A stretch of DNA of 64,000 bases from Heterotrichella gracilis (lineage: Eukaryota > Sar > Xanthophyceae > Tribonematales > Xanthonemataceae). The notes beneath the pieces are model-generated. The model made no database searches. It saw nothing but the letters and a program-made list of their open reading frames with translations, and had not been told where the DNA came from. This document shows, piece after piece, positions 2,774-56,387 of this stretch. The stretch covers positions 62,001 to 126,000 of the forward strand of contig JAULBX010026163.1 in the NCBI GenBank assembly GCA_032358255.1, written 5' to 3'. The first letter of the stretch is position 1; each line of letters starts with the position of its first letter. The translations under genes and the position numbers were made by a program.

Positions 2774-5700
2774 TCAGCCAATAGGCAGCCTGAGGTATGT
2801 GGCCAGCAAGTAAAGCGTCACCCGCTGAGTCAGCAGGTGTCTTATCACCTGCACATTGGTCCCGGGGCGCGCCACCATCCCAAACAAAAACCCAAATCCC
2901 AGCAGCTGCGCCGAGTTCAATCCCCAGGAGAGGTACCCGCGCCACAGGGGGGCCGGCAGCGAAAAGAACGTCTTCTGGAAATCGTTAAGCTGGCCCAGGG
3001 ACAGCCGCGCCATGAGCTCCGACCCAAAAATCTGGAAGGCCGCCTGGCGCCGCTTCTCCTGGGGCCAAATAGCTGCCCACCCGGCGCGGGAAACGTCCCC
3101 ACATGTGGCGTCGGGGTCTGCCAGGGCTGCGGCCAGTGCTGACGCGACACCTGGCGCCTCTGCGATGCTGCGTGCGATGCCATAGCCTGCGCAAAGCGGA
3201 AATGGGTTAAGGGCGAGGTATCCCTATGGATAGGGTCCTGAGTGTACAGGTGGTTTTGTCATTTGTGAGTGCATGATACCTGCGCTGCTTAACGCTCCAC
3301 GCGGGGGTCCATGGTCGTTTTTGTATTTTGTGTAAAGATAGGACATAGCACTTACAATGATTTTTAAGGGTTTCACACCCGACACTGGGTGTGAAAACCC
3401 CGCCGCCGCCACCCTACACCCCAGTGGCGCCTGCCCCCGCTGCGTGCATACTTATGGTCAAGGATATTGAACTTGTGGTCTAGGTTTAGGGTTTCACCTG
3501 TTGCTGGGTGCGTGAACCCTGCTGCTGCCCCATACCCCAGCAGCGCCTGGCCCCGCAGGGGTCGGGGCCCCCCTATGGGTGTCAAAGCCCATTCCTCCTC
3601 GTGAATTGCATGTACCGTCACCCCCATGCCTGCCAACCGAGCCTGTAACCTCTCCTTGAGGAGGGCAAAGGGCACCGACTGCTTGGCCACAAGGCAGGTC
3701 TCCTGCAAGGGGTTAGAAATTAGAGATAAGACTTCCTAGATGAATACAGGTTCTGCTGTGGTAGAATTTTCTGTTTACATTCAGGTTTGTACAGGCAAGG
3801 TGGTCATCTTCCAAGATGCAGTGAGCAGCAAGGGAGGCATCCAATGTGGATGCTGCCATGTTGGACACCATGTCGATGTCTTACATGGATGATGGATCCG
3901 CAGATGCAAGGAATCTGGTGCAGGGTGTCCAGGTGTGGGAGGTTTGGCATCGTCTACACCTACAACCCACGGGCAGAGGTCATGCATGTACCAGTACGAG
4001 TTGGATTTAAATATGTATTTGTAAGCCATTTCTTTATTTAGAATTGGCCCCCAGGATAAATGTGGTGCATTTGTGGTTGGCTGTGACAAGGGGTAATATC
4101 ATACCTGTAGGAACACCCTGCCATCCTCAAGGGGCATGGCATACAGGAAGGAGGGGAGGGACTGGAATTTGGAGGCGTCCATCCCTGGAGGGAATCCCAG
4201 GGGCCTCGTGTCCTCCCGCCACACATCCCTGAAAAGGAAGAAACACAATAATGATAGGGACGGGTATGGCTACCTGGCTGGGGCACCAGTGGGCAACCAG
4301 TAATGATAGAAGCAGTGATGCGAGTAGTGACGCCTCCTCCTCCTCCGGCTGCCGCATGGGGAGGGTAACATGTAACGATGCATGCAGTAATGATGCAAGC
4401 GATGATGGAGTAGTGATGCAAGTAATGATGCTCACATGCCTGGCGCACACATGACAAAACAATCAGCAATGATGAAAGTAATGATGCAAGCAACGATGCC
4501 TACCTGGCTGGCGCACGCGCGGGGAAGGCAACCAATACTGATGCAAATGATGATGCAAGAAAATGTTTTTATTTTACCCACCTGGCTGCAGCACGTGAGG
4601 GGAAGGCAACCACGTTCCCCTCCACACCCGCAAGCTCTCCCCCCCTTGGACCAGGCAAATGCAAAAGAGATCCGGGGTTCAAACCACCACTGTTTGAGGC
4701 GACCCGGGGATTCAATCCAGGCTGCTGCGAAGCAATGGCAGGACCATCCCCATCCCGAAACTGGCGCATGTCCATGAAAGCCATGCATTCGGGGTCGCTG
4801 GATGTGCTGTAGCCTGTGGCTTCAGCGTAGATGCCGTAGGCGTGCTGGGCAGCGGTGGAGGGGGCCACCCCGCTCTCAAATTTCATGAATTTGCCCCCTG
4901 CGGCCCCCGCTGCAATAATGACCACCCTGCGTGTACGGGAGGGGAGGGGGGTAATAAAGAAACCCCAACAAAGGCCTTTGCTTGGATATTGGCGCCGGGG
5001 ATTACGGGAAGGGTTTTGCGTTGCCACGCCAGTGCGGCGCCACATAAACAATCACTTGCAAATCGATTCAAGGGAAAAATACATCATATGATCACCTTGT
5101 TGAGGACGGAACAAACTTTTCCACAATTGAGGACAAATCTACAAGCTATTTGGGTTCCTGCCTAACCACTTCCACTCCCTCGCCTCTCCTCCCCTCCCCA
5201 CCACACAACCCACCTTGCCTCCACCGCCGACCCCCCATGCAGCCACACGCGCGCCACCCTTTGCCCCCCCTCCGCATCCACCCGCTGCACCTCCCCTGGG
5301 GCAAACGCCACACCCCCTTCCCTGCACCCCTCCAGCAGGTGGTGCCTGAGCTTGGAACGAGACACTCGGGCGTAGCTGCGGCCCAGTTTTGTCTGCAATG
5401 GGGAGGGGGTTGGGGGTACTGAGACACGTGATGATAGGGGGCCAGAATGTTACGTGACCAAGACTTGAAACAAATGCTGTAGATCCGCTTCCAGGCCGTT
5501 GGAAAAGTGCACCCCTGTATCGTTCCACCCCCATTCAAGCTGTGGCCCAACCCTAGGCAAGGGTTCAGAGGGTTGAAGGCACAGGGCTTCATGTCACCAC
5601 CATGTGTTCCCAAGCTGTGCTAGCCTGCAACCCTAGCTAAGGGCTTTTGGTAAGGCACACACCTGCTCCCCATCTGTGAAGTGCACCGCTGTGTCTTGCC

Positions 5701-7240
5701 ACACGCGGTCAAAGGTGTGTCCCAACCCCATGGCCTCAAACTCATCGGTCCACACACCATAGGTGTTAGTGAAGCCCACGTCACGACCTGCAACACGTAC
5801 GCATGGTCAGATAAAAGAGTCATGCAGGAGATCAGACCCGCAGGCCCCTCCCACGAGTTCCCTAGGCAGTTTAGGGTTCTGGAGTTTCTCCTGGAAATTT
5901 AATAGGGTCACCTCCCCGCATGTCAGCACCAGCCTTGCAGCAATGAAGGGTCCATCTAGGGTTTCATGAGGGTATTACCCCCACCTGCCAGCACCACCTT
6001 CACCCCCAGCCTCCCCAGCTGCCCCGCAATGGCCAGACCCGCAGGCCCCGCCCCCACCACAATCACACCTTACAATATTTTGCCTAGGGTAACCCCTCCG
6101 CACCAAACCACCTTCGCAACCTCCTCTGTTTGAGCACATGGCATTTTGCGCAATTAGGGTTTCATCAGGGAGCAATCAGGGTTTCATGAGGGTACTACCC
6201 CCACCTGTCAGCACCACCTTCACCCCCAGCTTCCCCAGCTCCCCCGCAATGGCCAGACCCGCAGGCCCCGCCCCCACCACACACACATCCGCTACCTGCA
6301 CCCCAGGTAGGTGTGGGGGCAGGACTGATGCCAGGCTGGGCTGTCGCTGCTGCTGCTTCACAGCCTGACACGTGGCACATGAAAAAACCAGGATTAAAAA
6401 AAGGTATCACTTCTGAGATAACAAATATAGTTGTTTTTGCGGCAGACTGATGCTAGGCTCGGCTGCTGTTGCTGCTGCTTCACAGCCTGACACGTGGCAC
6501 ATGGAAATAATCAGTGTCGAAAAAGAAAGAAGGAAACAAAAGGGCCTCGCACACCGCGGCGCTCCACTTCGTTCAGGCGCTGGTTGGCTGCACGTGCAAT
6601 TGGCTGCGCACACAATGTAACGGGGTTTCGAATGTAAGCTGCCAAGTTGTGACTCTGCATACAAATTGGGTGGGTGGGTGTGCTGGGGCTGGTAGGGCCC
6701 AGTCAAATGCACTGTGCTGTTGCAGGCAAATTCTCCAAGCCCATTACCTACTCCACATGGTTGGAGAAAATCTAAGCCATTTCTAGAACTCACCTGCTCC
6801 ATCACAATTTGTGACTGGTGCCCCCCTTCCTTGATGCTCTGGTTGGCTGCGCATGTGGGTGGCGTAGCTGGCTGCGGAGGCGCTATACGGGTGGGTACTA
6901 GGACCTCCAGCGGTGGGTGTGGGGGTGGCGGTTGGGGGCGGGTGGGTGGTGGTGATTGTGGCGAGGGCGGCGGTGGTAGAGGCCTGGTGGGGTGCGCTGT
7001 CTCAGTTTGCACAGCCTGCGCCACCACCTTGGACCCTAGCGTAGGGTTTGTGTGCTTCCGGTGGGCTTTAACCCCCAAAGCTGGGTGCGCACGCCCTGAT
7101 GACTTATGGTTGGTCTGTGGCGCCGCTTTGTACCCTAAGGTAGGGTTTAGGGACCTCCAACTTGTGGAGCGTTGTGCCGTGCTGGTGAGGCAACTCGGCT
7201 GGCCAGACAGACTGGTGGGTAGTGCACGCATACTGTCCAT
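2774..7240 (-). CDS. Lycopene cyclase-like protein A (epsilon-cyclase type), about 8 exons
   Basis: Plant-type lycopene cyclases are FAD-dependent plastid enzymes that form the end rings of alpha/beta-carotene. Exons (approximate, 5' to 3'): 7240-6794, 6364-6205, 5787-5663, 5392-5214, 4926-4582, about 4229-4105, 3702-3511, 3189-2774; all junction phases agree, giving about 660 residues. Visible motifs are the FAD-binding GAGPAGLA, a GVWTDEFEAMGLG segment, GRSYARVSR, AYGIYAEATGY, FLYAMPLEDG, EEEW..PIGG and AAAGFTHPATGYGIARS; the last two resemble plant epsilon-cyclase more than beta-cyclase. The FLEET motif, usually needed for catalysis, reads FLQ|ET across an intron. Exon 1 is a 149-residue Pro/Ser/Thr-rich leader, plausibly a plastid transit peptide. 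Exon 5 carries an extra Pro/Gly-rich insertion of about 60 residues. The family call is firm; which ring it makes, or whether it is a cyclase at all, is open. Confidence 0.85.
3370..3422 (-). repeat. Donor-side echo of cyclase A exon 7
   Basis: A copy of the exon end that encodes GYGAAAGFTHPATG (real one at about 3511-3555) lies in the downstream intron with a changed residue (THPVSG-like reading) and an intact GTG donor. A GGGTTTCACAC block accompanies both copies. Confidence 0.75.
4262..4535 (-). repeat. Donor-side echoes of cyclase A exon 5 in an ATGATGCAA-rich intron
   Basis: The real exon 5 donor lies at about 4581 (reverse strand CAG^GTGGGT). Intron copies of the same edge appear near 4270-4300, 4436-4450 and 4500-4532, recognisable as ACCTGGCTGG..GCAC..GGGGAAGGCAACCA-like blocks. 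Between them the intron is built of short ATGATGCAAG/TAATGATG repeats. Confidence 0.65.
5981..6064 (-). repeat. Exon-edge echo of cyclase A exon 2 (FAD motif copy)
   Basis: The 3' part of exon 2, encoding GPAGLAIAG and the following beta-strand plus the donor site, is repeated in the downstream intron. The copy still reads GAGPAGLAIAGQLGRLGVK-like on the minus strand. The stretch between the two copies also contains GGTTTCATGAGGGTA on both sides, so the duplicated unit includes intron flank. Confidence 0.8.
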
Positions 7241-8805
7241 GATGTACCCCTGTGGATGCAGAAACAGATATTACTGGGTGCTTAGGAATGGAGGAAAGAC
7301 ACATCCGTACCGTGTTGTGCAAGATTCAGGCAATAATCCTTTGAGATTAGTTTGGCAAATAAGCAATGCCATGCCGCTTCAACATCTATATGACAGACAA
7401 CCAGTAATGTTGAACCCTCCCACCAGGGCCGACGTACTTCGTTTCGACTTTGTTTTTACTGGGCAAGGTGTGATATAACCAGCTGAAAATTGACATCGCC
7501 CCTCCAAGGTCTTTTGGACCACTGAGCGTAGTCAGGGCCCAGGGTGGAAGCTACTCGGAGCTGAAGCTACGACCCAACCCTTTCCGACAAGGTTGCAATG
7601 CACCACGCAAGCACGAATACTCTGAGGAAACAACAACCCTGTTCCAGATACCATCTGAAATAGCCCTCTCCAATAAGCAGGCAGCTGACCCTTCTGCGTA
7701 CCCTTGCGCTGAGATCGCCAGGTGTTGAAAACTCACCAACCCCAGTGATTGCAAGCCGCTGCGCCGCAAGGCCGGGATGCTGCTCTGTCAAGGCAATCGG
7801 CTGTTGGTTTCTATCAAAGGAACAATACCCAGTTGCTGAAAGTGAGCTCAGGCGCGCTGCGAGGGAGCCAAAAGCTATCCTGTGCGCCGTGTCAACATGT
7901 GTACCGTACCGTACTACGGTAGCCCCACGGTCGCACGCCAGCTGTTGGTTTTCCCCTATTTTTGAAAACTGAGGAAAACCTGCCACTGCTATTGGTATCA
8001 GTTGCACGAGAAACGTGTGGCTCAACCAACCTTGCGCCCGTCTATAACCCAAGTGCCCCCCGCCACACAACCTCCTGCTGTACACATGTGCTGTGCCCAC
8101 AGCAGCCGACCGGCAGATGCCGAGTAAGGTGGCGCAAGCAGCAATGACGTGGGCAAACAGTCTTGGAATGTGACCCATCAACTCACATCAACGCAGTCTA
8201 AGCAGCCTCCAGCGTGTCAGCGCATGTTGTCCAAGACTATTCACAGGCGCTGGGCTTCCAGCCTGTCGAACGGGCCAAATTTTTAATGCGGCTGGTATGA
8301 AAACCCTTGTGTAGGGTTTTGCCACAGTTTTCCCGCCCTTGTGTTAGGGTTTTGCTGGTGTAGTGCCATTTGGGAAATATTGCCAAGTTAATGGATTTGT
8401 CGCCATGTTCCTTGCAAGGTTATTATGAAAGGGCAGGCTGGTTTAATTCGTGGTGAAATGCATGCGCTGCCGTCATGCTCAACCCTTACAAGCCCGAGTG
8501 TACGTCTTCTGAGACAAAAGAAACCATATCCTGCAGATAGGCAATGTATTCATTAGCATTTGGAGACAGAAAAAGAACAGAATTGTATAGTAAGCGCAGA
8601 AGCCAACTAGGTCACAATAGGTGTTGCACAACTCCTGGCCAAAATCAACCACGTTGTGGATCTTCACAGTCCGTTGGTCACAAAGTAAAAGGTTCAATGC
8701 TTGGAAACATTCTTGCAACACAAAGGGTGTAAGCACAAAGGCAGGGCAAGAATTTAAGCAAGAGTCGTGGCAACACCCTGTGACATCCCTGAATCCCCAC
8801 CACCC
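7241..8805. other. Spacer between cyclase A and the UGT gene
   Basis: This stretch holds the 5' flank of cyclase A and the 3' flank of the glycosyltransferase, which are transcribed in the same direction. I see no coding exon. Telomere-like TAGGGTTTT pieces occur at about 8308-8352. Confidence 0.4.
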
Positions 8806-15200: not shown

Positions 15201-18200
15201 ATGGGGTGTACTGCACTAGCCAGGCAAATCCAGCCTGCAGCCCAGGGTTGGCAGCCAAGCCACACAAAAACCTTAACCAGACCCTCCCCAAGGCATTTCA
15301 CACGCTCCAAGCGCACCCATGGCACCACCCACCGGCATCACCTATGTTTGGCTCCCTGTGCGATGCTGGCAGGCATGGAGCCAGACCTCCTCACGAAACA
15401 GGTATGCCATATTGCCACTGGGGCAGCACTGTGTCTAGGGTTTTGGTTCCAGGCTCTAGGGTTTTGGGTGCGGTGTTGGCAGGCATGGTGCGCAGCACTA
15501 CAAGGTGCAGGCCTTAGGGTTTTGGTGCAGGCTTTAGGGCGGAGGCCTTAGGGTTTTGGAGGGAAAACGTCCTAAACTGGTCATTCCACAAGCACGGTCA
15601 TGACCCCTGCAGGGGTTGGTGCTGGTTAGGGTTTAGGGTTTGGGATCTAGGGCCTGTCTAGTAGCAACTCACAAGCTGATCTGAAACACCCTTGCTCACT
15701 ACCACCTAGGTTGCGCCTAAGGCCCCAAACCCTTGCGTAGGGTTCCATGCTGACCACCCAATACCCTTGCGCAGGGTCGCAAGTCCTACACCAACCAGCC
15801 GCCACTGACCAGCCTCCTCCCCTCCCCGCCCAAGGGGGGCACGACAGCGGATGTGTGTGTGGTGGGGGCAGGGCCCGCGGGTTTGGCCATCGCGGGGGAG
15901 CTTGCAGCACTGGGGCTCAAGGTGGTCCTGGCAGGTGGGGGGGAATACCCTAACGGAAGCCTAGATGCACCCTTTATTGCCGGGGAGGCTGGGGATGACA
16001 GTGTTGCTGGCAGGTTGGGGCATGGAACCCTATGTAAAATGATAAATGTAAAGAGGCACGTGTGTGGTAGGGCCAGGGCCTGCGGGGCTGGCTATTGGGA
16101 GGCGGGTGCGGGTTTCAGGCGAAACCCTAAACCCTAGCGCATTGGTCATACCCTTGTTGAGCGGCAACATGACCTATGCCATGTGGACCAATAAAATCCT
16201 CTTGCAAACCCAAAACCCTACCCGACACCCTACCCAAAACCCCGAACTGAAATCCAATATTGCAGCTCGCGACCTCCCCTTCATCAACACCTACGCCATG
16301 TGGACCGATGAGATTGCTGGGCTGGAGTTGGAACACACACACAACACCACATGGGAGGACACGGTAGGGCAACACAATACCCTACTCATAAGCACATGGC
16401 GTAAACCCTGAGCCCTGAACACTAAACCACAACACCACATGGGAGGACACGGTCGGGCATAGCCGCACCCTATTTATAAGCACATGGCGTAAACACAAAG
16501 CCCTGAACCCTAGACCGCAACACCACATGGTAGGACATGGTAAGGCACCGCATTGCTCATGATTACACCTGATCGCATCTGATTAGGGGTGAGGAGGACT
16601 GGGAAACCACATCTTTGAGTTTTCAAAGGCTTTGGGGCAATCGAATGCATGTCACATCGTTGAAGATTGCATCCCTATGCCAGGCACTGCATGAGAATAC
16701 TGTGGTGAGGGGCAAATTTCGAATAAAGATGGTGGAGTAGGAAACAAATCGTAATCCCTTTTCCATCATAACACTTAAAACGCAACAATATATTGTGTGC
16801 AGGTGTGCTATTTTGAGGAGGGCAAGGAGGTGCGCACGGGTAGGAGCTACACCAGGCTGTCGCGGCACAAGCTGAGGCAACACCTGGCGGAAAAGTGCGC
16901 TGCAGGTGGGGATTGCATTTCCTTTGTGCTGGGATGAGGAAATCCTTCACATGTGCAAGAATGTGATGGAACATTCTTGGTTATGTTCCTTCACATATGC
17001 AAGAAGGTGAAGGAGCATTCTTGGTCATGCTCCTTCGCGTATGCAATATGACCAAGAATGTGCCTGAGTTCGTTCTTAACCTGAATGGTAAGGAAATGTG
17101 TGCGGCAGGTGGGAGTAATATATAGGAGAGGTCACCTCAATTGTAGCAGGGGAGATCGTATCTGACAAATAGCAACGTATGCCTTGTTAGACCTAAATCT
17201 TTAGCCCCAAACCCTAAACTGTATACATGGCATCGTCGCAATGTGGTGAGACAGTGGCCGACTTTGAATGTTTGTGCCGCAGGGGGTGTGGCATTTGTGC
17301 CAGGGGACGTTACCTCAGTAAGCCAAGAGGAGCCAAAATCTCAATGGGAAACTCATGAAAGTACTTCCGATGTGCCGGTGGGAGGGTGGGGCTCCCTGGT
17401 GGAAGTGGAAGGGGGAGTAACCATCCGCACAAGGTGGGGAGGTGAACCCTAAACCCTACATCCTAAACAGTTGGGGCAAGGTCGGCATTGGAGTTTGCCA
17501 TCGATTGTTGCCCATATGATGGTGTACACTGCTGTCATGTTATGGTGGGCCCTAAACCCTAAGCCTTGAACACCGCTGTAGTGGTAAACCCTGAACTCGT
17601 AATCTGCAACACTGCTGTCCAGTGTGCATGCAGTTTGCAAGCGCAGCACATGCGATTGCAGGTGATTGCACCGGGGGAAAAGTGCCCTGCAACATGAACA
17701 ACAATGCGCACACATTCCAGTTCTTGCCCGCTATCCCACTCCAACCATGCACCCTCCTGCAGGGCGGTGGTGGTGGCGGCAGGGGGCGCGGCCGCCTCCA
17801 AATTCCTCAGATTCGAGCCACACGCTCCCCCAGCCCCCCTCCAAACCGCCTATGGCATCTACGCCAGGGTGGAAGGCTATGACAAGTGGTGCGACCCAAA
17901 TGCCATGAATTTCCAAGATTTCCGGATGGCCTACAGCGGGACAGGGGCCAAGGGGCCCATCTTCGACCCCCGCCGCGACACCCCCAGTTTCCTGTACGCC
18001 ATGCCCCTTGCCAATGGGAGCGTGTTACTCGAGGAAACATGCCTGGGGGCCCATAAACCGATCACATTCAGGGAGCACAAGGCGCGCCTGGAGAGGCGCC
18101 TGGCAGCGATGGAGATTAAGGTGTGGGGATGGGGGATGGAGGGGGGGAGGAGTGGGGGGGGGGAGAGCGAGCGCCAGGACTGTGGATGCACCTTAACCGT

Positions 18201-20585
18201 ACGTCACTAAGGCACGTGGTGCGGAGATGATGGTAGTGTTGCAAAGGGCCTTTGTAGGGTGAACCCGAGAGAAGCTGCTCCAGCCAACAGATTGTGTTAA
18301 ATTAGGGTTTAGGGTTTAGGGTGCAAGCAAGGAACAGCACCACCCAGATGTCTGCCCAGGTGGAGCACACAGAAGGTGAGTCAGCTGGCTAGGCATCAAA
18401 AGCAGCAGATTTGAATTTCGAATTCGAATCAGTACTGAGGGCACCATACACCGATACCGTACAGCCAATAGCAAAGCTGTGAGCGTGCACCCCGCTTGAC
18501 CATATGGAATGGAATGGTAGACTGTGTTGCTACTGTTGTACATTGATTGAGCTGATCAGTCGTGCTGCTGAGACTGTGCGTCCTCGTCGTCAGTGATGCC
18601 TGCAATGTCAGCAAACGCTGTCGTCAGTCACAGCCCTGATGATGACTTTGCAGTCAAAACCGATGCCGATGACGCACATTCTCAGCAGCAGGACAGCGCA
18701 GCTAGACATATAGGACAATAGGAACCCACAACCAACCATGCAATAAGGTCAAGCGTGGCACAATCACAGGCGTGGTATAGGCTGTACGAGATGGTTGCCC
18801 TTAACTAGGATCTCACTAGGGTTTTTCCCGCAGGTGGTTGAGGTTATCGAGGAGGAGTGGCTTTCCATCCCCATGGGGGGTCCCCTCCCCTTGACACCAC
18901 AACCCTACATGGGGTTTGGGGCAGCCGCTCGCCTCATCCACCCAGCTACAGGCTACTCGGTTGCCCGCAGGTAGGGTGCTCTCGTTTTGCGTAAACCCTG
19001 GGGTAGGGTTCTGATGCGCACACGCGGGATCAAATATTTAAAAGATTAAAATTGTGGTTTCACCAAACAGCTGCCCTTGGGATTATCCTATCAAATCTGA
19101 CCTGCCTGCCTTACGAATTTACTTATTTAAATAACAAATATTAAACTGTTTTGCCCTCTCTACAGCCTGCGGGAGGCCCCTCGGGTTGCAGCCGCCATTT
19201 TGGTGTAAACCCTAACCCGTAAATCCCGAGCCCTAAACGGGTTTGATTTTCGTACCCTGATTGCAGCCTGCGGGAGGCCCCTCGAGTGGCAGCCGCCATC
19301 GCCGCAGGGTTGGAGTCAAGCGATGGGCAGGCGGCGGTGGGTGGGGCGTGGCGTGTGCTGTGGCCCCATGATGCGTACCGCCAGGTGGGTGGGGATACCC
19401 TAACCTAGGGTTTGCAGGAGTTTAGACGGGGTTTACCCTTGTGTAGGGCTTGGGGTGTGGCACGTGCTGTGGCCCCATGATGCGTCACAGGTGGGTGATA
19501 CCCATGTGCAGGGTTTTAATGCTTTGTCGTAGGGTTCTCACGCGTTTGGGTTTTGAGCATTGTCGTGGGGTTTGTAGTCCTTGCTTGGGGTTTGGTCACG
19601 CTGGTGAGGCTGAACCCTACCAAAACCCTATCAAAACCCATGGAACCCCTTTCTACACCTTAAGGTCAACCCACCCATGCCCATGTCGCAGGCCTCCTTC
19701 CAGGTGTTTGGCATGCAGCTGCTAGCGGGGCTGAACCTTTCTGAAACCCATACAAAACCCTGCCATGCCCTACACCAGGGTCCACCCGCTCCATTGCCAA
19801 CGAGGGTGATACCTAAAAACAGTATTGCTTTCCAGGACCTTGTATCAACACTTGAATGCGCCCCCCAACCCCCCCACCCCCAATCCCGTGCAGGCCTCCT
19901 TCCAGGTGTTTGGCATGCAGCTGCTTGCAGAACTGCATCCACAGAAAGCTTGCCGACGCCTTATTAAAACCCTGCCCAAGGGTTTCGGGTCAAGACCATG
20001 CCCACACCCTACTTCAATTCTCGCCCTCCCATGCCCCCCGCAGGCCTCCTTCCAGGTGTTTGGCATGCAGCTGCTTGCGGGTCTGAAGCATGGCCACATG
20101 GTCAGCTTCTTCAAGGCCTTCTACAAGCTGCCACCTAGCTTCTGGAAGGTACGCCAGCCCTGAAGTTACAGGAACCCTGGTTTGCATTTTGACATGTTTT
20201 CTAGCTCGAGTACACATGCTGCATGTGACATGGGCAATATTTTGAAGCCATTCGGTGTGTGCATCGGAAACCCCTGACAGGGTATGCGGAGCAGGGCTAC
20301 GCCCCGCATCCTTGAGGGACCAGCTGGGGTAATAGCCCTACAAGAATACCCCTTTAGGTTAGGACCAAGGATTTTCCACACCACCTGCAGGGCTACGTCT
20401 CCCACGACCTCTCCGGTGCCCAGCTGCTCCTGTTTGCGCTGATGATGAGCGTGTTTCTCCCCCCTTTGACCAACCTGGCGCTGGCGCGCCACGTGGTGAC
20501 CCACCCCTCCACGCTGTACCTGCTCAGGACCTATATTGTGGCGGGAAGGAATACACAGAAATCTGTGACAGAGGATTTGCCCTAG
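15201..20585 (+). CDS. Lycopene cyclase-like protein B, about 9 exons; 5' exon uncertain
   Basis: Second member of the FAD-dependent plant lycopene cyclase family. Exons from the FAD domain on (approximate): 15775-15934, about 16266-16367, 16803-16905, 17281-17430, 17762-18120, 18834-18971, 19266-19384, 20044-20151, 20391-20585. Motifs: GAGPAGLAIAGEL, NTYAMWTDEI, GRSYTRLSRHKL, TAYGIYARVEGY, FLYAMPLANGSVLLEET (the catalytic LEET is intact here), EEEWLSIPMGG, GFGAAARLIHPATGYSVAR, and a hydrophobic C-terminus. EEEW and HPATGYSVAR favour an epsilon-cyclase-like origin, PMGGPLPL also recalls beta-cyclases, so ring specificity is open. An ATG at 15201 starts a basic, Ser/Thr-rich stretch ending at a donor near 15402 that could be a transit peptide, but its phase does not fit the 15775 exon, so the N-terminus is unresolved. 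Confidence 0.82.
16368..16545 (+). repeat. Donor-side echoes of cyclase B exon 3
   Basis: The exon end AACACCACATGGGAGGACAC plus its GT donor (real copy about 16348-16367) recurs at about 16430-16452 and 16518-16540. Each unit also carries a CATAAGCACATGGCGTAAA intron block, so the repeat period is about 80 bp. The last copy is the most degraded. Confidence 0.85.
18561..18693. repeat. Imperfect hairpin 1 (arms about 50 bp) in a cyclase B intron
   Basis: Left arm about 18561-18610 and right arm about 18644-18693 are reverse complements at roughly 80% identity by eye, sharing the block TGCTGCTGAGA.TGTGCGTC. The loop is about 33 nt. It could be a small-RNA precursor, an inverted-duplication remnant or a MITE core; no terminal target duplication was recognised. 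Confidence 0.7.
19163..19200 (+). repeat. Acceptor-side echo of cyclase B exon 8
   Basis: A copy of CAG^CCTGCGGGAGGCCCCTCG, the start of the SLREAPRVAAAI-coding exon, lies about 100 bp upstream of the real one at 19266. It reads into an in-frame stop and CCCTAA filler. Confidence 0.8.
19688..19932 (+). repeat. Two acceptor-side echoes of cyclase B exon 9
   Basis: The acceptor and exon start encoding ASFQVFGMQLLA occur three times: at about 19691, 19893 and 20044. Only the third continues into LKHGHMVSFFKAFYKLPPSFW and a donor, so the first two are echoes. The copies are nearly identical over about 40 bp, suggesting recent origin or conversion. Confidence 0.88.
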
Positions 20586-25675: not shown

Positions 25676-28600
25676 TTAGGGCACATCGCCCCCCCAAACC
25701 CCAAACCTCGCCAGCAGGCCCCGCTCCGGGCGGGCCCTATTCGCCTGCCACAACTCCTCGGGATCCGCCAGCTGCCATTCGTAATCCCGGGAAAGCAGCG
25801 CCAGCACCACCAGGGCCTCGGTCATGGCCAGGGACACCCCGATGCACATGCGCTGCCCCGCGCCAAAGGGCAGGTACCCGCTGGGGTGCTTTCGGAGGGC
25901 GGTGTTGCCAGGGGAGAGCCAGCGATCGGGGAGGAACTCGGCGGAGCTTCCCTGCCATTCCTCAATCTGCAGGGCCAAAGGGGCGGGAGGAGGGTCAGGA
26001 CACGCATACTAGGTGATACATATGAGTGTGGGTGTGACAGGGTAGTGAAAGTGCCTGTGATGTGCCATAATGCACCTAGACCATAAAATCCCAAGCAGGG
26101 GGATGTTTTTCACGCTTCCTCACCTGCGACATCCCCTGCCCCACCATCAGCTGCAGCATGGCCCCCATAGCAGACCTAAACCCTTCCCCCCTACCACACC
26201 CCTCCCTAGGGTCATTCGAACCCACCTGCGACATGCCCTGCCCCACCATCACCTGCAGCATGGCCATATTAGGAACCCTTAACCCCTACCCCCTACCACA
26301 ACCCTGGCCAGATTACTTAAATAATAAAATGTTTTACCTGCGACATCCCCTGCCCCACCATCAGCTGCAGCATGGCCCCCTCAGGCACCAGGTAACCCCC
26401 GAGCTGGAAGGGTTTTAGGGTTTTCCTCCACACCCCAGGCACCGTGGGCCTGAGCCGCATCATCTCCAGCACCACTGCCTCGCCATATACCATCTCAGCA
26501 AGCGCCTCTGGGGTGATGGTAGGGCCGTGCCGGGACTGGATTTGCGCCTGCTCATCCCTGGAAGAAATTGGGATGAGTTTGTCAGGCTGCAGGAAGTCAT
26601 AGTCCTTGGGAAGAGGGCAAATCAGGGTCTCGAGTCACATCATCGCCAGCAACCCCGTGCACCAGTCCAGAAAGCGCTGCAGGGGTGATGGCAGCGCTGT
26701 GTCCGCAATAATTTTGCACCTGCTTGCCCCTCAACAAAAGGCCGCGTTTCTTTGAGTGGTAGACACTGTTCAGCTTTGGTGCAAGAAGTCCCTGCTATCC
26801 CAAGGACAGGATTGTCAGGTTCTGTTTTAAAACTTTAGGGTTTCCCTCCCAACCTGAGCGCCTGCATCACCCTCTTGTCCCTCCCCAGGTAGTGGATCAG
26901 CAGCGTCACCAGGGCAGCTGTTGTTTCCTGGCCAGCGAAGTACAGGTTGACGCACAGATCACCCAAGCCAGGCACGCCAACCTGCAGCACAAGGAAGATA
27001 AAACCTAAGCTAGGGTTCGTGCCGGCATTAAAAAATATAAATCGCCCAGACCAGGCACGCCAACCTGCCAAACAGGAAAAGAGAAACCTAAGTTAGGGTT
27101 GGAGCTGACAGAAAAAAATATTACATTAGGGTCCTGGTTGGGAGATTGGGGATTGGTGCACGTTCCTCCCTTGTGAGGCACACTAAGCTGGAGTACGTGA
27201 CACATACTACCAAAATGCAGGTTCTGACTGGTAGAGAAAACCCAACAAGGCTTCTGGCCGCCAATATACAACAGAAAATGTGAGGTGCTAGCCGGAAATC
27301 GTTGTCATAATCCGATACCCCAAAACCCTAAACCCTCACCTTAGGGTCTGCCGCCGTCACCCTATGCACCGCTGGGATGGCCTCCCCAGGGGCCACCGCC
27401 AATTTCCCTCCCCTTGCCCTGGTTTCTTGCACCACCCCTTGCAGGTAGGGGGCCAGGGTGTCCACGATGTCGTTGCGCCCCCGCATTGCGCGCCCATAGC
27501 GGGTCCAGGGGAGGTTGATGCCCAAGGCAAATAGGCCCTCCGAAATCTGCAATAGACACCACATTTGTCAGGAGACAGACTGAGCGAATAAATAGTAAGT
27601 TTGTTGTTTACATGCAGTCCAGCAATACAGCAAGATTAGCAATCAGCCTTGCACATGCTGTGCCATGCAGCTCTTTCCTGGCACTGTTTGAACCACCTAT
27701 TGATCCCACGCGACTTGAGGTCCTTACACCCCAGTCACCCTCCCTCTAAACCCTTCCAGCCCCAGTTCCCTCCCCTCCTCACCTGTTCCATGTCCCCATG
27801 ATGCGCCCCTGCTCCCCCCCTTCCAGCTCGCATCCAACCACCCCCGGCCAGGAACAGTAATTACGTATTCAAAACCAATTCCCAATCCCACTTCCCTCCC
27901 CTCCTCACCTGTTCCATATCCCCCATAATGCGCGCCTGCTCCCCCCCCTCCAGCTCGGCCCCAACCACCGCCAAGCTCACTGAAAGCATACTCCCGTGCC
28001 ACCTCACAAAGTGACACCTAACCCCCACCGCCCAGGGCAGTATCTTCAGCTTTTCTACACCAGTTCCTAGGCCCAGTTCCCTCCCCTCTCACCTGTTCCA
28101 TATCCCCCATGATGCGCGCCTGCTCCCCCCCCTCCAGCTCGCACCCAATCACCGCCAAGCTCACCGCCCTGAAGGCATACTCCCGTGCCATCTCATAGGA
28201 TGACGTCATGCCCCCGCTGGCCACGGCCCGCGACAGTATTCCCCGGAAAATGGACACAAACTGGGGTACATATGCGGCCACTGATTCGGGGCTGAATGCA
28301 TCCACCAGCATGCGCCTGGCCCTCTTGTGTTGGGCCCCCCTGATGCAAGGGGTGCGGGTTATGTTAGCATACATGAGCAGCGCACTTATGGGTCACTGGG
28401 TGGCTGCATGCACAGCAGTTATACAGGAATTGGTGTAACGTTTAAAATATGTACTGCACACGCAGGCAACTGGTTAGGGACTACCGGCGTCTACCAGCAT
28501 GCGCCTGACACACTTGTGCTGGCATCCCCTGTCCCGTGCGTGTAAGCGGGCTGTTACCTTGGTGGCTCCACGCCTGCAAATGCAAGATATTGGCACAGGC

Positions 28601-31490
28601 GCATGTGCACTCATGCATGCAAGCATGCACATCTGCATAATGTACAGTCGGGCATGCTGTCGACATGCTTGACCGACTCTAAAAGTCATTGACCTAATGA
28701 CTAGGGCTGTGACATCGCAGACAGCTGCTCAAACTATGCTGGATGCGTTGCCGAGCGATGGCTGCATCAGGTAGCATACAGAAAGTGGGATCAGCGAGGT
28801 GCTGGGTCCATTGTTGACTCCACGTTCCATGCACTACTCGATACAGCAACCAATCAGCATGCATCCAGCAGAGTTTCAGCAGCTGGTGTCGACGTTCGCA
28901 GCCGATGTGTTGAGTGCCAGTGACACCCAGCATATTGACAGAAGGTTTAAATATTTTGACCCCGATATCAACCCTGCAAGCTTTCCATACACGCCTGCAA
29001 GCGTTCCATACACGCCTAGCAGAAACTGCACTTGCATACGTGTGTGCACGCATGCATATACATGCACACACATGATCCGCACCATGATACACATATATAT
29101 GCGCGCGCCTATTAGTCATGAGCGAATGAGTCCCAGCAAGTCCAGGATGCGTTTGGGGCATGCAGCTTAACCGCACCCTCCCGTCACCCTGTGAGCACTT
29201 GCGTGCATGAATGCATACCATGGATGCACAGGCAGGAACCCTGTAGACAAGCACAAGTGCACAGGTGCAAAATGCTTGTGCATTGCTTTAATGTAACTAC
29301 CCTTAGCCCTAACCCTAAACCCTAAACCCACCTGAGGGTCATGAGCGAGTGGGGACCCAGCAGGTCCAGTATGGGTTTGGGCCAAGCAGATTCCACCAGC
29401 GCGCCTTCTGTCATCAACAGTGCCCGCATGTTGTCCCCCCCATGCACGAAGAACACGTCCCTCCCCAGGATGGGAATGTTGACTCGGTAGACCTGACCAT
29501 ACTGCTGGTACCTGCAAGCGGGAAGTTTTGATTCAGGACCCAAGATAAAATGACAGGGGTTTCTAATATTGTCGGTGATGTTTCTTATGCATCTCCCCTT
29601 GCACGAACAACACGTCCCTGCCCAGGATGGGGATATTGACCCGGTACACCTGACCAAACTGCTGGTACCTGCATCAAGGAATGAGACAAGCCAAAGGCAT
29701 ATTTCAGTCCTCGGTTTTCCCGTATGGCAGTCCTCGGTTTCCCCGTATTGCAGCGCATTAAAAGCCTACAGATGCCACACTCGAAAGACCGCGATCTTCC
29801 AATGCAGGGCATATGCAGACCCCCAAACTGTGCTGTGGCATCTACAGGCAAGCTCAGTGAACCATGATACAAATCCACTACATTTACAATTAGGAGTAGA
29901 AGCACAACTACACACATAATTACAGGGCACCCTGGCGAATGCAGCATGATGCTGCAAAGGTACAATATCGTGATCACATGTTAATGGATCTCAATGTTAG
30001 GGTTGCAAATTGCATTGCCAGCTCACCTTGCTTCATGCAGCTGCACAGCGGCTGTCAAGGAAACACCCTACTAAGTTCCCATGCTGCACCACACCTTAAA
30101 ACCCTAAACCCTACAACCTCCTCACCTTGTTTCCTGCAGCTGCAAGGGGGCGGTGAGGAAGTCGAGGGTGTGGCCTAGCAGGGGAGCGCCATAATCACCT
30201 GGGGAGGGAAGTACAAGCCCTCAGCACACTGTCAGTACTCCTCGTTGCTCAAGGGCAAGTGATTGAGAGTGATTAAGAGTGGCTGAGAGTGATCAAGAGT
30301 GATTAAGAGTGATAAAGAGTGATTGAGAGTGATCAAGAGTGACTGACAGTGATCGAGGACTACACAAGTCTGACATGGCTTCAAACTCCACATACAGCAT
30401 TTGCATGGCTGCTACTCAGGCCAGCAGCTCAGCTCGATCCGATTGAACCAATGAGCAGCTCCAATCAGCTGCTGGACTGCTATTAGCAGCCTGCTGTGCA
30501 TCTTTACACCTTACTTACCCTTATTTACACCTTATTTACACCTTGCAGCTGACCTTCTGTCAGGCCATGGCACAGGTTCCAAGCCATGAACTGCTGACTG
30601 CACAATGACACCTCATCCCCTCCCCACAACAGCACAACCGGTGCACATTGGAGGCACAGACCCCCAAAACACCAAACCCTAGAACCCCCCTGGCTGCTCC
30701 CAAAACCCTACACCCTAGATCCACTGCCCTCGACCCTACCTGGCGGCGGCTCCAGCGACTCCCTGCCACCCCCCCTTTCGCCCACATAGCCCTCCTCCCC
30801 CTCCCCCAACCCAGCACCACCACCACCACCACCACTGCTGCTGACCCCGCCGCTGGCATCTGCTGAGGGGCGTGTGGGTGGTTGGGTGCCAACACCACCA
30901 CCAAGTATTTGCTCCTCTTGCGAGTGGAACGGGCAGCCGGAAGGCGCGGGTTCACTTCTTTCCCCACCGCTCAGTCCTGTAGAAGTGGTTTCAGAGCCAA
31001 TTTCTGAGCCCAACCCAAGACCTCCCACTGCCCTGCTGGACGCCTCTGCCTTGCTTGAGCTGCTTTCGATCGCGAATCCTTCTGCGCCCTCCCTAGCAGT
31101 GGTGGTGGTACTGCCAGCATCACCGCTGCCGTACCCTGCATTCGGCGGGCTGTCGCTGCGGGAGGCGGTGTTGCCATTGGCGATGCCATTGCTGCCGCGG
31201 GTGCCATTACCATAGCTGGTGCTGGTGTCACCACTGCTGTTGCTGGTGGTGTTGCTGGCGCTTTTACTGGTGCTGGTGTTGGTACTGGTGCAATCGAAAC
31301 TTGTTTGGCCTTTGATGCTGCTGCTGGTGCTGCTGCTGGTGGTAGGTTCTGTAGGCGCATCGAGGGGAGGATGGGAAACTGCTTGTGGAGGGAAGGGGAG
31401 GCACTTCCCGCTGGGGGTGCGGTTGCCTGCAGGGCGGGGAGGAACGCCTGAGGTGTGCGCAAAACCCTCAGGGGTTCTTGATAGGTATAC
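25676..31490 (-). CDS. Cytochrome P450, CYP120/CYP26-like, with a long Ser/Thr/Asn-rich leader
   Basis: P450s are heme monooxygenases; cyanobacterial CYP120 and animal CYP26 oxidise retinoids and related terpenoids. Exons (approximate): about 31450-30740 (open upstream to 31490), 30198-30126, 29511-29332, 28339-28093, 27546-27340, 26981-26854, 26557-26338, 25966-25676; phases checked at the first three junctions agree. Motifs: PPG|DYGAPLLGHTLDFL at the N-terminal hinge, SAWPKPILDLLGPHSLMT and HKRARRMLVDAFSP (C-helix) which resemble CYP120, the I-helix FAGQETT, the K-helix EMMR, PDRW, and the heme loop FGAGQRMCIG with its Cys ligand. Ahead of the hinge lie about 240 residues of low-complexity Ser/Thr/Asn/Gly instead of the usual membrane anchor. 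No ATG was found in that frame, so a 5' exon is missing, perhaps near 32.1-32.3 kb. Substrate unknown. Confidence 0.82.
26105..26270 (-). repeat. Two donor-side echoes of P450 exon 7
   Basis: The exon end coding MLQLMVGQGMSQ with its donor (real copy 26338-26385) recurs at about 26120-26165 and 26224-26268, nearly identical over 40 bp (CACCTGCGACAT.CCCTGCCC). The downstream copies keep an open frame, so they could act as alternative donors. Confidence 0.88.
27606..27700 (+). repeat. Dispersed about 85-bp repeat, copy 1
   Basis: The segment containing CAGCCTTGCACATGCTG, CATGCAGCTCT and TCCTGGCACTGT is shared in the same orientation with 45887-45972. Weaker partial matches occur near 10210-10300 and 35529-35570. 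It lies in a P450 intron. It resembles a SINE or MITE fragment, but no ends were recognised. Confidence 0.7.
27779..28012 (-). repeat. Two donor-side echoes of P450 exon 4
   Basis: The exon end coding AVIGCELEGGEQARIMGDMEQ-like residues (real copy 28093-28200) recurs at 27779-27842 and 27905-28012. The second echo is about 100 bp long, extends back to an AREYAF-coding segment, and is close to identical. Each copy keeps a CACCTGTTCCAT donor edge. Confidence 0.88.
29595..29672 (-). repeat. Upstream echo of P450 exon 3
   Basis: A second copy of the acceptor plus RYQQ(F/Y)GQVYRVNIPILGRD coding start lies 150 bp before the real exon at 29511. Both copies have a good acceptor. A degraded copy of the same exon's end (GLLGTHSLMT-like) is at about 29110-29165. 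Confidence 0.82.
30258..30355 (+). repeat. 10-bp periodic array AGAGTGAT(T/C)(A/G)
   Basis: About ten units of exactly 10 bp (GAGTGATTAA, GAGTGATCAA and close variants) lie in the first resolved P450 intron. The strict 10-bp period makes GAGTGAT recur once per helical turn. No coding frame was recognised. Confidence 0.85.
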
Positions 31491-47247: not shown

Positions 47248-50200
47248 TCAATCTGGGCCCGAGATCTTCTTCATGTCGATGGTCGCAGGGCCTTGCAGGT
47301 TTTCCCCCTTGCAGTCGAAGCAGGAGCCGTGGCAGGGGCAGTTCCACTCACCCTCGATAGGGTTCCACTCCAGCAGGCACCCAAGGTAGGGGCACAGGGC
47401 GGAGTAGCGGCTCACCCTCCCCTCCTCATCCTTGTACACCGCCACCTGGAAGCAATATAATACCCATTTAATGAAGATGGCATTATTGGATGTGTTTATA
47501 ATTTATCTCTTGCGTGTCACGTCTCCACAATTCAAGTACTGTCAGGTATATTTCACATTCAAAGCAATACCCCTGACGAGTTCCGCCTGCGAGCCAACAG
47601 GAGTGCCCATTCCATCCCCGTCATGCATTACCATGCATGGCCGCATCCCTGGCTCTCAACATCAATGCATTGTGCAGTGCACCGATGCACATTAGCCCTG
47701 GCCAAAGGCTTTCTCTACATAAGAAACCTTACATTTCTGAGCTTCAAAAAGCCGATGTTGACCACCGCGCCGCAGGCCTACCAGGCGCCAGCTGTCCTCC
47801 ACATTTACCCCGAAGAACCTTGCCCAGGGTACCCGCCAGTACCCTCCCATGCCGCTTTCAATTCTCCTATTGGTATCCCCATGCACAATGCTTAAACCCT
47901 AGCCAAGGTCCCAGCCTTACCTTTCTCAGCTTGAGGAAGCCGCTGTTGACCACCGCGCCGCTGCCGGGCGCCATGTCCTCCACATCAACCCCGAAGAACC
48001 TCGGCAGGGGAAGCAGCATACTGAGGGCGGACAGGATGGTGTTTTTGTAGTAGGTGGCGGACTGGGAGCCAGGGAACAAGGGGGGGCCGCGCAGCTTGCG
48101 CCTGGGGAGGGAGTTTTGGGTTCAAGATAAGGCGTTAAAATGCAATGGTCCCTTTGTAGTAGGTGGCGGTGGCAAATTGGAAACCACAGTGGCGGTGGCG
48201 GTGGCGGAACTGGGCCATAGTGGGGGGCCACGCAGCTTGCGCATGGGGAGGGGGTTAGGGTTATTAGGGTTTCAGACCGGAGTTCGAGGGTTCTTGTAGC
48301 AGGTGGCGGATTGTTATTATGGGACTATTATTATCTTACTACCCTTTGGGAGGGGCACGCAGCTTGCGCCTGGGGAGGGGTTTAGAATGATTAAGATTCA
48401 TACTGGGTTAGGGTTTTGTGGGGTCCTAGTACAATAAACCGTGGCAGAATGGGATTCAAGCCACGAGGGGGGCCCACGTAGCTTGCGCCTGGGGAGAGGA
48501 TGAGGGCTTTTAAAGTCCAAGGTTTAGGGTTCAAAGTTCAACTTTGAACCCTAGTAGGGGCAGGGTGCTACTTTTGTAGTAGGTGGCGGACTAGGAGCCG
48601 GGGAACAAGGGGGGGGCACGCAGCTTGCGCATGGGGAAGGGGTTAGGGTTTTCAGGGTTTGTGACTAGGGCTTGATGCTAGGATTTAGGGAGTTGTGGAT
48701 TTTATTGTATTAGGTGGCCAACTGAGAGCCGGGCCACAAGGGAAGCCCACGCAGCCTGGGGAGGGAAACGTGGATGTTTAGGGTTCAGGGTTGAGTGTTC
48801 AAGTCTAGGGGTCATGATGCAACGGTCTTCTTAAAATAGGTGGCGGACGGGGAACCAAGAATTCGTAACTTGGTGCTGTAGGGGTGCCCATCTCCAAGAA
48901 TTTCAGCACCGTGGCTGGTGATTGCACAGCAGGAACAGTCCAGCCAGCAGCGGTGCAGACACTCCCCGAGATGGGGACCCCTACACCACTAAATTATGAT
49001 CGGTTGTCCCTTCTGCTCAACCCAGGCCACAAGGGGGAGCATGCATCTAAGGGTTTAGGGTTCCAAGTTAGAGCTCAGGGTGCTGCTTTTGCAGTAGGTT
49101 GCGGACCGGGAGCTTATGCCTGGGCAGGGGGTTATGGTTTTCAGGTTTCAGAGTGGGGTTGAGGGTGTTGTGGGGTTATTGTGATAGGTGACGGACTGGG
49201 AGCCATATCACAATGAGGGGCCTTGCAGCCTGCGCCTGGGGAGGGAATTAGGGTTTCAGGATTCTGGGTTAAGAGTTTTTAAGATTAGGGTGTTGTGGTG
49301 TTTTGTAGTATGTAGCGGACTGGGAGCCGGGCCACAAGGGGGGGCGAAGCAGCTTGCGCCTGGGCGGTAAGGGAAAACGATCAGTAAGTGGAGTGAATTA
49401 ACTTGCCGGTCATCCTTGTCCAGGCGGATTAGTTTTAAGTAAATGTAAATAACATAAATCAACCCGACTAAGAAAGCACGACTGGCAAATTAATTACTCC
49501 GTATACTTGTCACTCTCCCCCCTCCACCCAGGCGCAAGCAGGCTGCCTGGGATCCTCTTGAATGCCATATGAAAGTCGTAATCATACTTTTGAAAGACGT
49601 ACAATTAATCATCAACCTCAATAAGCATTTTTGCATTTATGTGGGCAGAGTGATCAGTACACGGAGTGATTGATTTGCTAATTATCCTTGACCAGGTGGG
49701 TTGGTTCTAAACTACAGTACGTAAACCAACCCAACTGGGCAGAAACAAGCAGCACATTTACTGCAATCATGATCGCTCCTTCCCCCTCCCCCCCCCCAGG
49801 CGCAAGCTGGGTTGGACCCTCTTGAAAGTCGAAACCCTACTCTTAAAAATCGTAATCGTTCTCTTGAAAATCGTACGAATGTCTGGAGTAGGGTTAGCAT
49901 TATGAGGGCATCATACTAATTATAAGAAGCCTGCAGCATACAATTCTACTACGCTATGCCGATAAACCCTGGGCATCTCCCTTTAAGGGGGTGCTTCCGG
50001 CTTCCTAGGAGTCGTGCAAATCCATCTCCCATGTTTTTAATAAACTGCAGGGCAAAAGGATAAAAACCAACTCACTTTGTGCTGTAGATGCAGGATCAAA
50101 CCCTAATCCCTTATCCCTAACCATACTCACTTTGGGCTGTAGATGTCGGCTGCAGGGTTTTCCCTCCCCAGTATGAGGTCTGCTATCACTTCCCCCCCTA

Positions 50201-55883: not shown

Positions 55884-56387
55884 AGCAATGAAGTGGGGTG
55901 AAGAGGATCGGCCCTGGCTGTACGCGGGAGTGCCGCGAGAGTGGCGAAAGGCAGTGGGAAGGGAGTAGGGCTTGCCTGATGGGCAGCGTTGCTGCCTAAT
56001 GGCTGTGCCGCCTGCAAGGTACATATTGTCAGAGTAAGGATCTACATTTAATTTGCATCTGACTGGGCCCTAACATGAGCCTACATGCGCACATTGGTTG
56101 GCAACCATATTTTCAAAGGCATGTTGACATGCCACGTGAGAGGAAAGCAAGTGGTTTACTCAACCGCAAGCTTCCTCACATGCGGCAGATCTGCATGGAC
56201 TTGAAAATGGGTTGCCCACCAATAATTCTGTACAGGGTTAATTTATTGTATAAGGGTTCATTGCACTCCTGGACCACTGCGCGGCGGCAATGATGCGCCC
56301 TTCCAAAGTTCTGCACAAAACTTCCCACCAGAGGGCACTCTTAAGGTTTCCACCACAATTACACATCATGGCGCATGCATACATTGC

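Follow-up and report, generated by a model that had tools for sequence, protein, structure and literature searches.

The introns of Heterotrichella gracilis repeatedly contain degraded copies of the exon edge that adjoins them, and we favour, with a probability of roughly 55%, break repair at splice edges making duplications, often with filler, that lengthen introns. Observed directly are the copies, which we call echoes, their neutral drift, the arithmetic of net insertion, motif-rich spacers and an excess at exon edges over a random model.

Frequency of exon-edge echoes

Homology-based models gave 23 genes with 139 usable introns; two of these genes lie in the window, the stretch of 64,000 nucleotides analyzed here. 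In 28 of the 139 introns the edge of the neighbouring exon recurs as a copy within the intron, and one shuffle of each intron produced no families, which confirms what the initial annotation of the window had reported. Pairs were searched for by Waterman-Eggert alignment; BLAST self-comparison missed some repeats with short shifts (the 44-bp repeat in Table 1 was found by TRF). At scores of at least 36, 45 and 60 there were 30, 24 and 18 edge families among totals of 39, 29 and 21 duplication families, respectively. The 30 edge families comprise 21 at donors and nine at acceptors and are accompanied by nine families in intron interiors, all of them direct duplicates adjoining their own source, with or without filler. 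Most edge families are single pairs.

Echoes occur outside the window too, in the same 68.5-Mb assembly, on several contigs. The same annotation had placed them in every multi-exon gene, which proved too general: they were seen in nine of the 23 modelled genes, and HSC70 and beta-tubulin are among those in which none were found. Given this concentration the events are not independent of gene. Nor does each copy include the GT or AG, as had also been proposed. Among 41 edge-copy pairs the dinucleotide is kept in 27, changed in 6 and beyond the alignment in 8, so that the statement holds for most copies and fails for cyclase B intron 1, cyclase A intron 3, L029 intron 3 and L039 intron 4, where only exon-internal sequence matches. 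An assembly artefact is very improbable: in the best pairs the two copies diverge by up to 29%, the flanks differ from copy to copy, nine genes spread over several contigs show the pattern, and the window contains no N.

Poor models led us to exclude, before counting, L038 introns 1 and 4, the final intron of L037 and the final two of L040. Exon-exon pairs were also left out, as were, in the 139-intron count, shifts below 40 bp; L027 and L001-L018 lie outside the set of modelled genes. CCTdelta intron 2 and CCTtheta intron 1 run across gaps in the template, where an exon may be concealed. The family count and the length and spacer tests used the 139 introns, the probe test and early self-comparisons 45-51, the codon, inverted-repeat and palindrome tests 93, and the GGG/CCC test 141 (introns 1 and 4 of L038 retained). 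Most tests were exploratory, with thresholds chosen within this analysis.

Echoes in the genes of the window

Two lycopene cyclase genes were modelled in the window (Table 1). Echoes are present in introns 1, 2, 3 and 7 of the seven introns of cyclase A and in introns 1, 2, 6 and 7 of the eight introns of cyclase B. The best homologues of cyclase B, where named, are mostly lycopene epsilon cyclases; as 116 of the 120 homologues listed for cyclase B score higher with cyclase A than with B, the labels LCYB for A and LCYE for B were dropped and cyclase types are no longer assigned. A telomere-type motif is present in the spacer of cyclase B intron 6 (19199-19263). Intron 3 of cyclase B was at one point suspected to derive from a duplicated start of the next exon; direct comparison gave only 7-bp matches and this was abandoned.

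The echoes of the P450-like, cyclophilin and FAD-oxidoreductase genes were read by eye or by self-alignment rather than from gene models. The P450-like gene has a Pfam p450 match just under the cut-off, and a protein search with a single P450 exon gave no match. A fall of similarity with distance, claimed for the copies in general, is weak (rho -0.55, p=0.07 in the FAD array). An Rfam search of the window gave no match at gathering scores; the PF08083 (PRP8) profile gave none either, the controls likewise being without a match.

Table 1. Positions of cyclase genes, echoes and related duplications in the window
Feature	Position	Strand	Observation
Lycopene cyclase A	2786..6886	-	spliced alignment to P0001, score 980.5; Pfam Lycopene_cycl on last exon
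Cyclase A exons	6886-6794, 6364-6205, 5787-5663, 5392-5214, 4926-4688, 4184-4105, 3702-3498, 3186-2786	-	first exon least certain
Cyclase A intron 1, exon-2 acceptor-edge echo	6441..6507	-	functional copy 6318-6385, 90% identity; spacer 6386-6440
Cyclase A intron 2, exon-2 donor-edge echo	5958..6067	-	functional copy 6178-6287, 95% identity over 110 bp
Cyclase A intron 2, 110-bp spacer between donor copies	6068..6177	-	matches only itself in assembly; contains AAACCCTAA motif
Cyclase A intron 3, weak echo	5505..5553	-	source exon 3, 5679-5728, 78% identity; stops 16 nt before donor
Cyclase A intron 7, exon-7 donor-edge echo	3364..3440	-	functional copy 3485-3556, 73% identity
Cyclase A intron 5, intron-interior duplication	4398..4612	-	counter-example to edge rule
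Lycopene cyclase B	15757..20534	+	spliced alignment to P0001, score 807
Cyclase B exons	15757-15934, 16266-16363, 16803-16905, 17283-17385, 17763-18120, 18834-18970, 19267-19384, 20044-20148, 20391-20534	+	
Cyclase B intron 1, weak echo	16060..16095	+	source exon 1, 15855-15890, 83% identity; donor not reached
Cyclase B exon-2 donor edge, three tandem copies	16340..16547	+	period 88 bp = 24 bp exon + 64 bp intron
Cyclase B intron 3, interior 44-bp tandem repeat	16943..17046	+	counter-example to edge rule
Cyclase B intron 6, acceptor echo	19163..19198	+	begins at -3 of acceptor; functional copy 19264-19299, 94% identity
Cyclase B intron 7, exon-7 donor echo	19451..19503	+	functional copy 19342-19400, 81% identity
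Cyclase B intron 7, distant exon-8 acceptor echo	19670..19735	+	functional copy 20024-20087, 89% identity
Cyclase B intron 7, near exon-8 acceptor echo	19890..19928	+	functional copy 20040-20078, 39/39 bp identical
P450-like gene, two more copies of donor edge	27745..27972 (27745-27845, 27887-27972)	-	edge within about 28020-28195; self-alignment, read by eye
P450-like gene, acceptor-edge echo	29595..29673	-	functional copy 29438-29516, 90% identity; self-alignment, read by eye
FAD-oxidoreductase gene, about 8-9 degraded copies of one acceptor edge	48145..49364	-	CCCTAA-type motifs between several copies
FAD array, last copy	48031..48120	-	read as functional acceptor and exon start; DAO domain in exons of gene

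Neutral drift of the copies

The copies decay as neutral intron DNA. In 31 edge pairs, a count in which one exon edge may enter repeatedly, copy and exon differ at 46/478, 51/477 and 93/477 sites of codon positions 1, 2 and 3, that is, at about 10% of positions 1 and 2 taken together and 20% of position 3; the codon-position test on these pairs shows no sign of selection on the copies. It is hard to believe that echoes function as alternative exons or as decoy splice sites under selection. The splice site is intact in 27 of the 33 echoes in which it can be read, but this is about the remainder that neutral drift of 10% per site predicts, and the dinucleotide has been lost in the other six. Mismatches that are equal at positions 1 and 2 and double at position 3 are what a coding exon's neutral duplicate would show, an in-frame stop interrupts the echo of L029 intron 10, and only 28 of the 139 introns are involved.

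Apparent net insertion and telomere-type spacers

Each echo event looks like a net insertion into the intron. The median length of echo introns is 401 bp, and it becomes 245.5 bp when the shift (of the best pair alone in each family) is subtracted, compared with 252 bp for echo-free introns. Most copies extend over the exon/intron junction, which implies an unspliced template; a retrocopy of spliced mRNA was ruled out because intron sequence is retained beside the exon edge in most copies.

The CCCTAAA-type filler noted between copies was borne out by the spacers. Telomere-type motifs cover 9.2% of spacer sequence; the figure is 2.5% for the remaining sequence of those introns and 1.3% for introns that lack echoes (p=0.0004 for spacers against random placement within the same introns). 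They occur in 13 of the 24 spacers of at least 10 bp; the other 11 are without them and several of these are AT-rich. CCCTAAA appears to be the telomere repeat of this genome, as arrays of it stand at the start of two contigs (C70 and C140) and another lies 239 bp into a third (C126), and the spacer motif is the same repeat. Extension of both break ends by telomerase should leave G-rich motifs on the left and C-rich motifs on the right of a spacer, by a criterion of 3'-end extension set within this analysis. This orientation was not seen: the mean relative position was 0.58 for 14 C-rich and 0.53 for 7 G-rich motifs (p=0.37).

The 110-bp spacer of cyclase A intron 2, the sole spacer searched, had one match, itself, in 68.5 Mb (very common words were skipped) and is thus not seen as a multi-copy family. 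Introners and transposable elements leave a short target duplication of fixed length; such an element is not indicated here, since alignments of the best pairs in edge families range from 21 to 261 bp and the one spacer searched matched itself only. Inverted repeats flanking echoes were at chance level (1 of 29 above its 20 shuffles). As a separate matter, the window contains palindromes; the one searched matches itself only, and a strong palindrome was found in one of 93 introns.

The initial annotation had suggested break repair with telomere-type filler. The net-insertion arithmetic, the motif-enriched spacers, the unique spacer, and the presence of non-homologous spacers between copies that are still 95-98% identical all fit this suggestion.

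Edge bias and random tandem duplication

A simpler account is local tandem duplication at random, with or without filler, anywhere in introns. Edge cases would then be conspicuous because exon-internal events are purged and an exon copy, being conserved, stays detectable for longer. We regard this as a possible explanation, though a less probable one than repair at splice edges. Local duplications are frequent (in 8 of 8 chunks of the window and 12 of 17 other stretches), nine of the 39 families lie wholly within introns, which indicates that the process is not strictly edge-bound, and pure tandem duplications without filler are found in cyclase B intron 2, CCTdelta intron 4 and L029 intron 9. 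Random tandem duplication with constrained exons was simulated on subsets of the modelled introns, scored in the same way as the real ones, and gave edge fractions of 37-59%, against 77-86% observed; the excess has p values from 5e-7 to 0.012 depending on the assumption made about unit length. The simulation comes closest when units are equal to the shift (null edge fraction 0.58-0.59, p=0.006-0.012), and the observed fraction lies above it under all three unit-length assumptions. In young cases, furthermore, the spacer is not homologous to the sequence after the second copy, so units there are shorter than the shift. In 7 of 15 families the young copies (identity of at least 0.86) stop no more than 6 nt from the splice site, where 4-11% is expected from simulation.

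A cruder early test with edge and interior probes at score 45 gave 14/90 and 8/70 matches, proportions that do not clearly differ. Since echoes are matched by interior probes too, this is a weak test; as far as it goes, it counts against edge bias. Overall, the random-duplication model accounts for a large part of the pattern and not for the full edge excess, and a bias to edges beyond random duplication and purifying selection is supported statistically, at exploratory thresholds.

Minisatellite-type arrays, formed by slippage or unequal exchange and including a splice edge by chance, could explain the regular 88-bp period in cyclase B intron 2 and the many-copy FAD array. As a general explanation this is most unlikely, most families being single pairs, often with unrelated spacers.

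Proposed mechanism

According to splice-edge break repair, the reading that we prefer, introns would repeatedly gain about 70-350 bp, either as an exon-edge duplicate with a non-homologous spacer or as a pure tandem duplication across the edge. The source would be staggered breakage, at splice sites or close to them, followed by mutagenic repair: fill-in of the overhangs would duplicate the exon edge, and filler, often telomere-type, would be added before the ends join. Only events that leave one intact edge would survive, so that the outer copy would remain functional and the inner one would decay as neutral intron DNA. The breaks and the fill-in, like the enzymes, are what we infer; CST-Pol alpha-primase and telomerase are candidates for the last.

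More tentatively, and at rather long odds, splice edges themselves may be the targets. At donors and acceptors alike, the 3' end that stays with the exon is often G-rich (GTGGG at donors, the complement of CCCC-CAG at acceptors) and looks like a telomeric overhang. The telomere machinery might deal with breaks at these points, with fill-in by CST-Pol alpha-primase duplicating the edge and telomerase adding telomere-type filler, and this could be a leading source of intron growth. GGG is found in positions +1 to +8 of 15 of 21 echo donors and 38 of 120 others (p=0.001), in agreement with this proposal, and the corresponding CCC in 6 of 9 echo acceptors and 48 of 132 others (p=0.09). Its prediction of motif orientation failed.

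Relation to known systems

That no described element class has such properties, as had been stated, is too strong. In a potato RdRp gene a tandem genomic duplication across an intron-exon boundary created a new intron, and in some of the mammalian insertions discussed below telomere repeats come with target-site duplication. As far as the account in PMC4974935 extends, the potato duplication resembles echoes in covering an intron end and an exon start, so that the copy carries a splice site. It concerns one gene and a new intron, whereas the echoes lengthen introns that were already there, and do so repeatedly, at donors as well as acceptors and usually with a spacer. The Rogers model of intron gain by AGGT duplication, as outlined in the same source, similarly yields spare splice sites; an echo, however, is followed by more intron, and intron length minus shift is that of an ordinary intron. 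Intron gain by tandem duplication, with the intron lying between copies that supply donor and acceptor, was rejected since echoes sit inside the intron with more intron beyond.

CST-guided Pol alpha-primase produces small tandem duplications where double-strand breaks are staggered (PMC8355091), and natural insertions in rice form tandem duplications (Vaughn and Bennetzen 2014, as cited in PMC8355091). The likeness to echoes is in short direct duplications by overhang fill-in, which for echoes is our inference. The part of PMC8355091 that deals with that system describes neither splice-site bias nor telomere-type filler. Mammalian interstitial telomeric sequences are inserted at breaks, some with target-site duplication or added random sequence (PMC2246262), and like echoes place telomere-type repeats at what, here, would be repair sites. 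According to the portion of PMC2246262 on these insertions, duplication accompanies 6 of 130 in rodents and 4 of 25 in primates; here an event is defined by its duplication, and about half of the events contain the motif. Unlike in telomere-repeat insertion by end extension, the expected motif orientation was not found.

No description of echo-filled introns was found in the open-access literature among the matches listed. Tandem duplication through repair is known, as is the insertion of telomere repeats with duplication of the target; the abundance and the splice-edge bias look new.

Implications for intron growth

To our knowledge, intron lengthening is poorly documented at the level of single events. 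The events described here are legible singly, with a conserved exon copy as a built-in clock and a measurable net gain. One genome would allow intron growth, the creation of decoy splice sites and telomere-type filler to be studied jointly. The splice-edge bias would tie DNA repair to gene structure, and the pattern may show how introns get longer.

Abundance of exon-edge echoes

Self-alignment revealed many local direct duplications in the window, with shifts (offsets between copies) mainly of 80-350 bp. At least one duplicated pair was found in all eight window chunks and in 12 of 17 other stretches of the assembly (68.5 Mb, 903 contigs; the window spans 62001-126000 of contig C365), and none in 75 shuffles of 25 chunks. 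Two of the 17 sampled stretches had a GC content of about 35% and may come from bacterial companions.

Exon positions were obtained with a purpose-written protein-to-genome spliced aligner, which gave eight exons for lycopene cyclase gene A and nine for cyclase gene B. Chaperonin, HSP70-type, beta-tubulin, actin-related and Cpn60 genes were modelled on other contigs; the total set comprised 23 genes, whose 139 usable introns add up to 39.7 kb. At a score of at least 36 these contained 39 duplication families: 21 involved a donor edge, nine an acceptor edge, and nine were interior, with both copies wholly intronic. The corresponding counts were 16, eight and five at score 45, and 12, six and three at score 60. 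The same search at score at least 36 in shuffled introns gave no families. An echo, i.e. a degraded copy of the adjoining exon edge, was present in 28 of the 139 introns, spread over nine of the 23 genes; the last-added 46 introns contributed eight edge and two interior families. The FAD-oxidoreductase gene of the window carries about 8-9 degraded copies of one acceptor edge. No edge echoes were found in HSC70-type and beta-tubulin genes (L028, L030, L031, L033-L035). Introns are short in L031 and the tubulin genes. The echo load may differ by gene class or expression.

Structure and state of the copies

Median intron length was 401 bp with an echo (n=28) and 252 bp in the others (n=111; p=5e-9). 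With the shift subtracted, echo-bearing introns measured 245.5 bp, not significantly different from other introns (p=0.66); insertion into an otherwise ordinary intron is thus a good description of each echo. Where the copies are young (cyclase A intron 2 and intron 4 of the chaperonin gene CCTepsilon) they are 95-98% identical and the sequences following the first and the second are unrelated, so these are duplications with filler and not plain tandem ones. Plain tandem duplications were found in cyclase B intron 2, intron 4 of the chaperonin gene CCTdelta and L029 intron 9.

In 31 edge pairs, drawn from the 93 introns modelled at that stage, echo and exon differed at 46/478, 51/477 and 93/477 aligned sites of codon positions 1, 2 and 3. 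If echoes drift freely and exons change only silently, the first two positions should mismatch equally often and the third twice as often; the counts follow this pattern, by which the echoes look like unconstrained intron DNA rather than alternative exons. Echo splice sites are intact in 27 of 33 within reach of the alignments, about what would remain after 10% drift per site. Most copies retain the intron bases beside the exon edge; the template was therefore unspliced.

Apparent preference for exon edges

Random intronic duplication often crosses an edge; duplications inside exons are removed by selection, and copies of exon sequence can be recognised for longer. In a simulation of random duplication, exons drifted at silent sites, other sequence drifted neutrally and acquired indels, and scoring was as for the real introns. 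The simulated edge fraction was 0.37-0.46 when units had the size observed and 0.58-0.59 when the unit equalled the whole shift; the observed fractions were 30/39, 24/29 and 18/21 at scores 36, 45 and 60 (exploratory p 5e-7 to 2e-4 for the first two of three unit-length assumptions, 0.006-0.012 for the whole shift). A copy ended within 6 nt of the splice site in 8 of 30 families against 9-11% expected (exploratory p 0.003-0.016), and in 7 of 15 families with identity of at least 0.86 against 4-11% (exploratory p<0.001). The 6-nt class was fixed before the larger sample; the p-values are exploratory because the remaining thresholds were chosen in this analysis. In an earlier and less refined test with probes, edges showed no clear excess (14/90 edge vs 8/70 interior probes).

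Telomere-type filler

Arrays of CCCTAAA at contig starts indicate that this is the telomere repeat of the genome. Telomere-type heptamers cover 9.2% of spacer bases, against 5.0% in the intronic portion of the copies, 2.5% in the remainder of echo introns and 1.3% in echo-free introns; the spacer enrichment was significant against random placement inside the same introns (p=0.0004). The motif occurs in 13 of 24 spacers, and some spacers are AT-rich and motif-free. One spacer was compared with the assembly and matched only itself, so that spacer is not a repeat family. A further motif peak lies 20-40 nt upstream of acceptors on the sense strand, which would be the expected branch-site position. 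Short interstitial telomere-type arrays are common in the assembly: four-unit CCCTAAA arrays gave 209 matches, overlaps included, and many of those listed lie deep inside contigs.

Other features of the window

Thirteen centred imperfect palindromes, 68-97% identical to their own reverse complement, were found in the 64 kb. The one in cyclase B, the only one compared with the assembly, matched itself alone and so is not an abundant foldback element. The two cyclase genes are divergent and about 9 kb apart; with the nearby P450-like gene they form a possible carotenoid gene neighbourhood. Proteins resembling cyclase B place the window with green algae, the best named homologues (43-44% identity) including Myrmecia, Trebouxia and Coccomyxa; cyclase A outscores cyclase B against 116 of the 120 homologues listed for B. 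The presumed histone cluster, unlike the intron-rich part, showed no direct duplication with a shift below 2.6 kb in self-alignment. It contains two short tandem repeats (TRF), no CCCTAAA, TTTAGGG or AAACCCT, and one AGGGTTT.

Coordinates of features in the window
Feature	Position	Remark
Cyclase A	2786-6886	minus strand
Cyclase B	15757-20534	plus strand
P450-like gene	27600-31500	
Satellite	56390-57211	50-bp unit including CCCTAAACCCTAA; about 16 copies
Presumed histone cluster	57300-64000	H2B-, H2A- and H3-like reading frames, recognised by reading alone
Palindrome 1	11075-11249	
Palindrome 2	18458-18788	cyclase B intron 5
Palindrome 3	22901-22952	
Palindrome 4	22969-23112	
Palindrome 5	23703-23877	
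Palindrome 6	28722-28885	
Palindrome 7	31644-31826	
Palindrome 8	48525-48553	
Palindrome 9	48863-48999	
Palindrome 10	50613-50860	
Palindrome 11	52364-52458	
Palindrome 12	57293-57416	
Palindrome 13	59291-59332	

Discussion

The echoes most likely stem from the repair of staggered breaks close to splice edges. A staggered break would arise near the edge, fill-in of the overhang would duplicate the exon edge, filler would be added and the ends joined, and selection would retain only events in which the exon side keeps one good edge. The enzymes proposed here are putative. According to one report, CST-guided fill-in by Pol alpha-primase at breaks in mouse and human cells yields small tandem duplications (PMC8355091); another describes insertion of telomere repeats at break sites of rodents and primates, with target duplication in some cases (PMC2246262). 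GGG occurs within +1 to +8 in 15 of 21 echo donors vs 38 of 120 other donors (p=0.001), and CCC at acceptors shows a like, non-significant trend (6/9 with an echo vs 48/132). Both tendencies would be compatible with 3′ ends that resemble telomeres at donor and acceptor edges alike, but the motif orientation expected from simple telomerase extension was not found in the spacers (p=0.37).

In one potato gene, an intron arose by tandem duplication across an intron-exon boundary (PMC4974935). No description of repeated intron lengthening by exon-edge copies and telomere-type filler was found in searches of an open-access library, subscription journals and preprints being outside their scope.
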